Origin: Epsilonproteobacteria bacterium tcs-49
Lineage (GTDB): Bacteria; Campylobacterota; Campylobacteria; Campylobacterales; Sulfurovaceae
Reading direction: 5' to 3'
Assembly: GCA_002049495.1 (NCBI GenBank)
Contig: LLYS01000009.1
Span: forward strand, 1-64,000
DNA length: 64,000 nucleotides
Shown: in pieces, positions 31,014 through 32,397 of the stretch
Layout: each line of letters begins with the position of its first letter
How positions within the stretch are numbered: the first letter of the stretch is position 1
Notes under the pieces: generated by a model
What the model was told of the DNA's origin: nothing
Databases searched by the model: none
What the model saw: only the letters and a program-made list of their open reading frames with translations
Program-made: the position numbers and the translations under genes

Positions 31014-31091
31014 GCAAAACTGACCTTGTTCACCATATGAACAAACCCCGTATGGCGACTAAGATCAGTGAAAAACAACAGGAGTAACAAT

Positions 31092-31655
31092 TTGGCAACA
31101 TATTCAATGAGTGATTTAAAAAAAGGCTTGCGGATCGAACTTGACGGCGTTCCCTTCAGAATCAGCGAGTACCAGCACGTAAAACCGGGAAAAGGTGCGG
31201 CGTTTGTACGTACGAAGATGAAATCTTTGCTTGACGGCAGGGTGCTTGATAAAACGTTTCACAAAGGTGACAAAGCCGACATCCCCCAGTTGGAACAAAG
31301 AACGATGCAGTATCTTTACGACGACGGTGAGATGATGCAGTTTATGGATAACGAAACCTACGATCAGATCGGTTTGACCTATGATCAGGTGGGGGACCAG
31401 AAGCAGTATATGAAAGACGGTTCCATGGTGGAGGTACTTTTCCACAACGATAAACCCATCACCGTCGAGATCGCTCCGGTGGTCGAACTTGAGATCGTGG
31501 AAACGCCGCCCAATTTCAAAGGCGATTCGCAGGGGGGCAAAAAGCCCGCGACACTGGAAACGGGAGCGGTGGTACAGATCCCGTTTCACCTGCTAGAAGG
31601 CGATAAGATCAAAGTGGATACCGTCGAGGGGAAATACCTGGAAAAAGTAAAGTAA
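31092..31655 (+). CDS. efp: Translation elongation factor P
   Basis: EF-P enters the ribosomal E site and relieves stalling at proline runs. The start is TTG 31092, seven bases after AGGAG, giving 187 residues with the correct N-terminus [18 protein letters not shown]. The modified-lysine loop reads [14 protein letters not shown] near residue 33, the sequence type that receives beta-lysine from EpmA in many proteobacteria. The three beta-barrel domains are complete, ending in [23 protein letters not shown]. No epmA or epmB is in the window. Confidence 0.95.
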
Positions 31656-31679
31656 ATTTGCAAACAGAACTTGATCTGT

Positions 31680-31839
31680 TATAATTGAGTGCATGAGTGC
31701 ACATGAGTGCAAGTGCAAACGAAGCGAAGAGTGAGCTTTGCTTACTCGAAGCGGAGCTGAGCCAAAGGCGAAGCTTCAGAGAGAGGAATTTTTGCGGACT
31801 TTGTTCGTAAAAAAAAGACTTGATAAAAAGGAGAGTAAG
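31680..31839 (+). promoter_or_regulatory. Extended -10 promoter and structured leader of the DJ-1 family gene
   Basis: TGTTATAAT gives an extended -10 at 31680-31685. The predicted leader of about 150 bases holds three copies of GAGTGCA between 31687 and 31711 and a hairpin with arms GAGTGAGC (31729-31736) and GCTTACTC (31740-31747, one G-T pair). Purine-rich GAAGC units follow. The ribosome site AAAAAGGAGAG at the end serves the DJ-1 gene. A leader this long is unusual in this compact window, so regulation by RNA structure or a small peptide is possible. Confidence 0.4.
31703..31810 (+). CDS. Possible small ORF in the DJ-1 leader
   Basis: ATG 31703 opens a 35-codon frame ending TAA at 31810, with a peptide rich in Ser, Glu and Arg and three Cys, ending NFCGLCS. 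A second overlapping frame of 13 codons starts at ATG 31693. Neither has a Shine-Dalgarno sequence, so translation is doubtful. The frame may only reflect the GAAGC-rich repeat character of the leader. Confidence 0.15.
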   Translation: MSASANEAKSELCLLEAELSQRRSFRERNFCGLCS

Positions 31840-32397
31840 ATGGCACAGAAAGTTGTAGTACCTTTAGCCCACGGTTTCGAAGAGACCGAAGCGGTAGCGA
31901 TGATCGACGTGATGCGCAGAGCCGGGCTCGAAGTGATCACCGCCGGCGTAAATGATACCCTGCTCAAAGGCGCCAACGGTATCAGTATCCAAAGCGATAC
32001 CAAGATCGATACGATCCTTGCCGATGATTTTGATATGGTCGTGCTTCCCGGAGGCTGGGGCGGTACGGAGATTTTAGCCGAAGATGAGCGGGTGCAGAAT
32101 CTGATAAAAGCGATGCATACCAGGCAAAAGCTCATCGGTGCCATCTGCGCCGCTCCCTATGCCCTGCATAAAGCCGGAGTGCTAGAGGGCAAGCGCTACA
32201 CCTGCTATCCCGGTGCGGAGGAGAAGATCGGAAAGAAAAACTTTACCGATGAACACAAGGTGGTCGTCAGCGAAAACGTGATGACTTCCAGAGGCCCCGG
32301 AACGGCGATCTGCTTCGGTTTGGAGATCGCGAAGAAACTGGCGGGGGTAGAAACCTATACGCAGCTCAAGGAGGGCTTGCTGGCTACATACTGCTAA
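31840..32397 (+). CDS. DJ-1/PfpI (ThiJ/YajL) family protein
   Basis: A 185-residue single-domain protein from ATG 31840, nine bases after AAGGAG. It shows the family triad region: the pocket Glu in AHGFEETEAVAMID near residue 16, the reactive Cys at the nucleophile elbow in LIGAICAAPYALHKAG near residue 104, and SRGPGTAICFGLEI near the C-terminus. This is the DJ-1/YajL branch rather than the PfpI protease branch. Relatives act in oxidative-stress defence, as chaperones, or as debated deglycases. It is monocistronic with its own long leader. Confidence 0.9.
   Translation: MAQKVVVPLAHGFEETEAVAMIDVMRRAGLEVITAGVNDTLLKGANGISIQSDTKIDTILADDFDMVVLPGGWGGTEILAEDERVQNLIKAMHTRQKLIGAICAAPYALHKAGVLEGKRYTCYPGAEEKIGKKNFTDEHKVVVSENVMTSRGPGTAICFGLEIAKKLAGVETYTQLKEGLLATYC

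Follow-up and report, generated by a model that had tools for sequence, protein, structure and literature searches.

The window, the whole stretch of 64,000 nucleotides analyzed here (Epsilonproteobacteria bacterium tcs-49, contig LLYS01000009.1, positions 1 to 64,000), contains a gene for elongation factor P (EF-P) followed on the same strand by a gene of the DJ-1/PfpI family (PF01965). The stop codon of EF-P, ending at 31655, and the ATG of the DJ-1 gene at 31840 are separated by 184 bases. A preliminary description of this gap had listed an extended -10 promoter, GAGTGCA three times, an eight-base hairpin, GAAGC words and a 35-codon frame whose peptide has three Cys, and all of these were recovered (Table 1). 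The extended -10 lies at 31680 with a weak -35 upstream, and a consensus scan found two overlapping promoter-like sites, compared with 0.2 expected from shuffles of the region. The three GAGTGCA words lie at 31687-31711, directly 3' of the -10; the single word is not enriched in the window (5 found versus 5.8 expected), and two such words at most 6 bases apart occur only here in a search of the whole genome. The small frame starts at ATG 31703 (the ORF list counts 37 codons, from GTG 31697), and inspection of the sequence showed no visible Shine-Dalgarno motif before this ATG. The leader, 31686-31839, is predicted to fold at -48.7 kcal/mol, compared with a shuffle mean of -35.0 kcal/mol (z -4.05; none of 200 shuffles folded as well).

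Table 1. Features of the EF-P/DJ-1 interval and of the element that it contains.
Feature	Position	Strand	Basis
Elongation factor P (EF-P) gene; start within frame provisional	31068..31655	+	Pfam EFP_N, EFP, Elong-fact-P_C
Promoter-like site, weak -35 and extended -10 TGTTATAAT, 5' of the element	31657..31685	+	Consensus scan
Local triple TGAGTGCA, outside the element	31686..31711	+	Word count, pair search
35-codon frame, peptide with three Cys; judged not to be a gene	31703..31810	+	ORF list; own-copy comparison
Whole structured element, three-hairpin form of this genome	31720..31818	+	Model R1, 105 bits; aligned with 12 other own copies
Hairpin 1, 8 pairs, GAGTGAGC-TTT-GCTTACTC	31729..31747	+	Fold; both-side changes at 4/8 pairs among own copies
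Core common across Campylobacterota: hairpin 2, linker, hairpin 3, degenerate AAGGAGA end	31743..31818	+	Model R2, 58.6 bits, E 4.6e-10, only match in window
Hairpin 2, GA/GA internal loop	31753..31777	+	Fold, covariation
Conserved linker, consensus AAGCUUUAGUGAGAGGAAUU, window copy AAGCTTCAGAGAGAGGAATT	31771..31790	+	Alignments
Hairpin 3, UUUUUGCGGAC-UUU-GUUCGUAAAAA	31789..31813	+	Fold; both-side changes at 10/12 pairs, 112 distinct copies
Shine-Dalgarno GGAG native to the DJ-1 gene; not part of the window copy of the element	31830..31833	+	Sequence
DJ-1/PfpI family gene, 3' of the element	31840..32397	+	PF01965, E 2.2e-46

A search of the gap against its own genome returned 19 matches at E<=10. 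Eleven of them (E<0.005, besides the window itself) cover part of 31717-31842, and none reaches the promoter-like site or the GAGTGCA triple, placing both outside the repeated segment; a twelfth covers only the native Shine-Dalgarno stretch. Two models were used to collect further copies. R1 is a covariance model built from the genome's own copies, so it favours them; R2 describes the core, with heavy weight on the linker and the ends, and was trained for the most part on copies selected by an exact 20-mer. By the rough E-values of these models, R1 found 22 matches in the genome at E<=0.01 and 27 at E<=10, and R2 found 19 at E<=1, 12 of them below 1e-6. Scanning 15 of the downstream proteins assigned 14 different Pfam families, DJ-1 included; one protein had no match above its cut-off. 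Hence the segment, searched in its own genome and in relatives, is scattered before unrelated genes. The preliminary description had preferred a sensor of oxidants and kept a dispersed intergenic repeat as its fallback; the fallback was right, while the scatter of the segment between unrelated genes is what had been named as speaking against the sensor.

Thirteen own copies align as three hairpins in which 11 of 28 pairs change on both sides, with 94.1% of cells paired versus 40-55% when partners are slid. Hairpin 1 does not belong to the core shared with relatives. This core, ~78 nt long, has the same order across the phylum: hairpin 2, the linker AAGCUUUAGUGAGAGGAAUU, hairpin 3 (12 pairs, with the pairing kept although the sequence varies) and AAGGAGA. 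The linker shares bases with the 3' arm of hairpin 2 and with the foot of hairpin 3, and the window copy ends in AAAAAGA instead of AAGGAGA. In a model alignment (A4; 96 loci as input, 114 copies, 112 distinct) that was fitted to the structure, and so favours it, 15 of 17 pairs change on both sides, 90.7% of cells pair (78.8% in hairpin 2, 95.6% in hairpin 3), and the covariation score for the 112 distinct copies is 0.734, as against 0.07-0.17 in slid controls. An unfitted alignment of the 13 own copies agrees with the fitted one on pairing. Collectively, the alignments indicate that the hairpins covary strongly; either selection or template-switch repair of palindromes may have produced the paired changes. 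We also considered a candidate pseudoknot between GCRAAGC and the hairpin-3 loop GCUUUGC, which was drawn from the consensus and left out of these counts. Two further observations concern variation in form. Between the unit of L124 and one unit of L148, Sulfurovum-like records with the same gene downstream, a five-pair block of hairpin 3 has been exchanged whole. Four loci (L165, L168, L296 and L301) carry longer variants, with extra, partly hairpin-like sequence between the linker's GCTTT and AGTGAG; these are perhaps nested insertions.

R1 matches occur in 27 of 60 genomes of the window's family and R2 matches in 43 of 298 Campylobacterota genomes, or 15 of 59 genera, the window's own genome included in both. 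Nine own copies score 92-119 bits with R1 and the best relative 63, a difference that is partly bias because R1 was built from own copies. At most 15 candidates were scored per genome in the phylum survey, so its copy counts are lower bounds. Genome G219 has 48 copies at E<=0.001 (40 of them read) and G118 has 14 (11 read); one stretch of G118 (L305, G118:C1:526760-527059) holds four head-to-tail units, three of them identical. Selection by an exact 20-mer gave a pattern set of at least 126 occurrences, and the 80 record titles listed, out of 118, are all of Campylobacterota (Sulfurovum, Sulfurimonas, Sulfurospirillum, Hydrogenimonas, Nitratifractor and others), save one titled 'bacterium'. 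One 78-nt copy had no match among plasmids and phages, the exact 20-mer none among viral contigs, and searches of open-licence PMC text turned up nothing on this element. Rfam gave no match to the window at the gathering threshold. For 18 element loci at E<=5 it reported RNase P, TPP and four weak matches below gathering scores, two overlapping or adjoining element regions, and no family that matches the element as a known motif; a known Rfam motif was rejected on this ground.

Placement relative to genes was assessed in three sets: 112 pattern copies (14 of the 126 lay near record ends and were dropped), 51 copies from G219 and G118, and 22 own copies. We asked for an open reading frame of at least 50 codons starting at most 90 nt from the AAGGAGA end, and used the other side of the element, on the opposite strand, as control. 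Such a frame follows 102/112, 44/51 and 18/22 copies, respectively, versus 37/112, 7/51 and 6/22 on the control side. A start codon 4-11 nt after the AAGGAGA end was found for 50/112, 31/51 and 5/22 copies, versus 2, 2 and 0 on the other side. The GGAG of this end is predicted to be unpaired with a mean of 0.62, compared with 0.49 when the upstream sequence is shuffled (n = 84 with exact AAGGAGA among 120). Ten copies of the pattern set and seven of the G219 and G118 set failed the frame test. Among them are what we take, from their sequence, to be two 16S rRNA records in the former set and a 16S and a 23S rRNA gene in the latter; L184 and L302 are the same place. The other failures trace to further units in tandem upstream, to genes below the length that the test asks for, to element ends that the script had placed too far, to a stretch present in duplicate (L181) and, at L105, to a locus with no visible start.

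Antisense copies occur beside tRNA genes: in L161 and L068 the element lies between tRNA-Ser and tRNA-Cys, in L131 it is near tRNA-Gly. In L122 it precedes tRNA-Ser in sense. In genome G027 it sits inside RNase P RNA (L066, 1260-1670), within a variable hairpin with ends ACCAUA and UAUGGU, presumably P12. The same locus has a TPP riboswitch on the other strand (976-1092), near the RNase P RNA gene. The element was also found inside a native hairpin in the leader of a gene that we take to be rpsU-like (L178 and L186, compared with L345). Many such leaders (L341-L370) have this hairpin, with ends like TTATC/GATAA, just 5' of a strong GGGGGTG Shine-Dalgarno motif; it is possibly a ribosomal leader structure of its own. 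As judged from these placements, the copies are mostly in sense and point at start codons, the antisense copies near tRNA genes being exceptions. The sense orientation may stem from selection or from the mechanism of insertion.

DJ-1 orthologues were matched in 54 of the 60 family genomes, and among the 30 loci listed the element is found only at the window's (one of the 30, L324, shows only 67 upstream bases). In ten relatives EF-P lies within 300 nt upstream of the DJ-1 gene; the gap is ~8-44 nt in seven of them and ~254-273 nt in three, all three without the element. A long gap alone thus does not mark an insertion. At rpsU, none of the 30 orthologue loci listed, out of 66 genomes with a match, carries the element, and eight loci selected for the element have it.

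Of 144 sites that show no obvious tandem unit, 17 have exact flanking repeats of at least 11 nt, versus 0.4 expected when flanks were re-paired between loci; these 17 sites are not independent, seven being one gene's leader in several records and two one tandem array that had passed the filter. The clearest junction is that of L116, from another species, where a 90-nt insert lies between two copies of a 24-nt sequence. At the orthologous junction L255 the site is empty and the 24-nt sequence single, with two differences. Exact duplications also flank the element at gene junctions in L175 (14 nt), L182 (19 nt), L129 (26 nt) and L243 (51 nt), and a duplication of ~57 nt with one mismatch, judged by eye, was seen in L241. 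The inserts between measured duplications are 80-115 nt long. L129, L241 and L243 are the same gene junction in three genomes, with duplications of different ends, and each duplication matches that genome's own upstream gene. In our reading the element was inserted here more than once, at a junction that it favours; an old duplication reshaped by gene conversion is a possible alternative. Seven loci (L083, L092, L096, L137, L142, L160 and L181) have the element in the leader of one small conserved gene, whose protein begins M-N/K-W-G-K-V-F-Y-I-F-F; in some genomes their flanking repeats are identical, and in others they have diverged. No convincing duplication flanks the window copy: the only pair, ACTTGAT, is 7 nt long and was dropped as a target duplication because 7-nt matches are common in the control. 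On the evidence of these junctions the element is mobile.

Two kinds of gene that might mobilize the element were counted, with element, RVT_1 and Y1 counts taken as on the same 298 genomes. RVT_1 genes are present in 12 of 43 element-positive and 47 of 255 element-negative genomes. Five element-rich genomes, G219 with its 48 copies, G118, G297, G248 and G020, had no RVT_1 match, and on that basis we rejected the idea that the element needs a chromosomal RVT_1 reverse transcriptase as helper. Y1 transposase genes are present in 28 of 43 element-positive and 48 of 255 element-negative genomes. The window's family has five element-negative genomes in the sample, and every one of them has a Y1 gene; no Y1 match was found in G297 (at least 12 copies) or G020 (at least 9 copies). 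The association appears to follow families, and a Y1 transposase remains a candidate for the helper.

We conclude that 31720-31818 of the window is very probably one copy of a mobile element of Campylobacterota that is small and non-autonomous. Comparison of the copies shows dispersal, conserved structure, mostly sense orientation, target duplications elsewhere and one empty site in a relative. In the window's lineage, the element sits between the promoter-like site and the native Shine-Dalgarno motif of the DJ-1 gene. When transcribed, hairpin 3 would end at AAGGAGA and, by prediction, leave GGAG fairly open, such that a copy would either supply a usable ribosome binding site or leave the native one intact. 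In compact operons, long target duplications would leave both neighbours undamaged, the upstream gene at its end and the downstream gene in its start region. We infer that copies survive just upstream of start codons because of this open GGAG or intact native site. On the DJ-1 gene, the effect of the element is most likely only to lengthen and structure the leader.

A bolder proposal, which we hold tentatively and consider rather unlikely, is a mobile 'leader cassette': the element would carry to start codons a structured 5' leader with a Shine-Dalgarno motif at its end, by a mechanism, maybe RNA-templated or guided by folded nucleic acid, that leaves target duplications of great and variable length. 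If true, the cargo of this mobile element would be a translation start region, and genes would gain a new ribosome-binding leader. We also doubt, somewhat strongly, that the element is a DNA-level, REP-like repeat acting in DNA structure, replication or recombination, with hairpins that matter only as DNA. Palindromes would covary in that case too, and Y1 genes are commoner in element-positive genomes; against it stand the sense orientation, the start-codon spacing and the flanking duplications, along with the way Y1 follows families and is missing from G297 and G020.

That the element is a widespread cis-regulatory RNA, riboswitch-like or a protein-bound leader, which controls a regulon and was copied to new genes with mobility secondary, is improbable. 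Such an RNA would fit the strong conservation of the unpaired linker and the two hairpins, and the sense orientation with Shine-Dalgarno spacing. Moreover, in some cases several species have the element at the same gene position, a pattern that vertical inheritance and function could explain; examples are genes that, going by their translations, we take to be purH-like, purE-like, rpsU-like and metK-like. Against this, the downstream genes are unrelated, copies also lie before 16S and 23S rRNA genes, inside RNase P RNA and antisense beside tRNA genes, the element is absent from 29 of 30 DJ-1 and most rpsU loci listed, and Rfam has no match. An RNA or regulated leader specific to DJ-1 was rejected since, among the loci listed, only the window's own has the element. 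Lastly, the reading in which a Cys-containing leader peptide (31703-31810) senses oxidants for DJ-1 is scarcely credible. The frame exists and has its three Cys; its ATG, as noted, has no visible Shine-Dalgarno motif, and neither the frame nor the Cys are conserved. We tried 12 own copies, of which 11 are readable in the same frame: three Cys occur only in the window copy, and six of the ten others have no start codon before the anchor. The nearest peptide, in L031, is a similar 37-residue frame with two Cys. A leader peptide with conserved frame, start and ribosome site was rejected on these counts, and the DJ-1 leaders of relatives that were listed lack it. The proposal in the preliminary description that a Cys peptide or structured RNA senses oxidants for DJ-1 thus found no support in these comparisons, with the element missing from the 29 other DJ-1 loci and the Cys not conserved; the window element is unlikely to be a purpose-built sensor for this gene.

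Among known small repeats, the mobile element favoured here comes closest in its described behaviour to YPAL/RU-2 of Yersinia. Passages of PMC2229807 describe YPAL/RU-2 as having internal inverted repeats, target duplications of 3-26 bp, empty and filled sites, and targets at or near dyad symmetry. Our element likewise has internal hairpins (2 and 3), target duplications of variable size and empty and filled sites. The sites in the RNase P hairpin and the rpsU leader hairpin may be targets with dyad symmetry. Unlike YPAL/RU-2 (~168 bp), it belongs to another phylum, has shorter inserts (80-115 nt) and duplications of up to ~57 nt, and is placed before start codons with an AAGGAGA end. We did not file it as YPAL because length, phylum and placement differ.

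The same passages (PMC2229807) depict bacterial MITEs such as Correia/NEMIS, RUP and ERIC as small, many in copy, free of protein and transcribed into folded RNA, with target duplications. Our element resembles them in being small, protein-free, multicopy and folded, with target duplications; unlike a classical MITE, the inserts of L116, L129, L175 and L182, whose ends were read by eye, have no terminal inverted repeats. The pneumococcal BOX, RUP and SPRITE are over-represented between convergent genes, according to part of PMC3049150, whereas this element lies mostly directly before start codons. It shares hairpins and many intergenic copies with REP/BIME, but differs in its flanking duplications and in the lack of a Y1 match in the element-rich G297 and G020. 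REP/BIME elements themselves, with their hairpins and many intergenic copies, are linked to Y1 (RAYT) transposases. Rickettsia palindromic elements are small palindromic repeats that enter RNA genes and are known for insertion inside protein genes; by description, our element is similarly small and palindromic and enters RNA genes, but its copies lie before genes, not inside protein genes. The usual view of small mobile repeats is that they last at sites where they have little effect. This element instead lies mostly in sense before housekeeping start codons, and also in RNase P RNA and before rRNA genes, and it is a warning against leader-peptide and riboswitch calls in these genomes.
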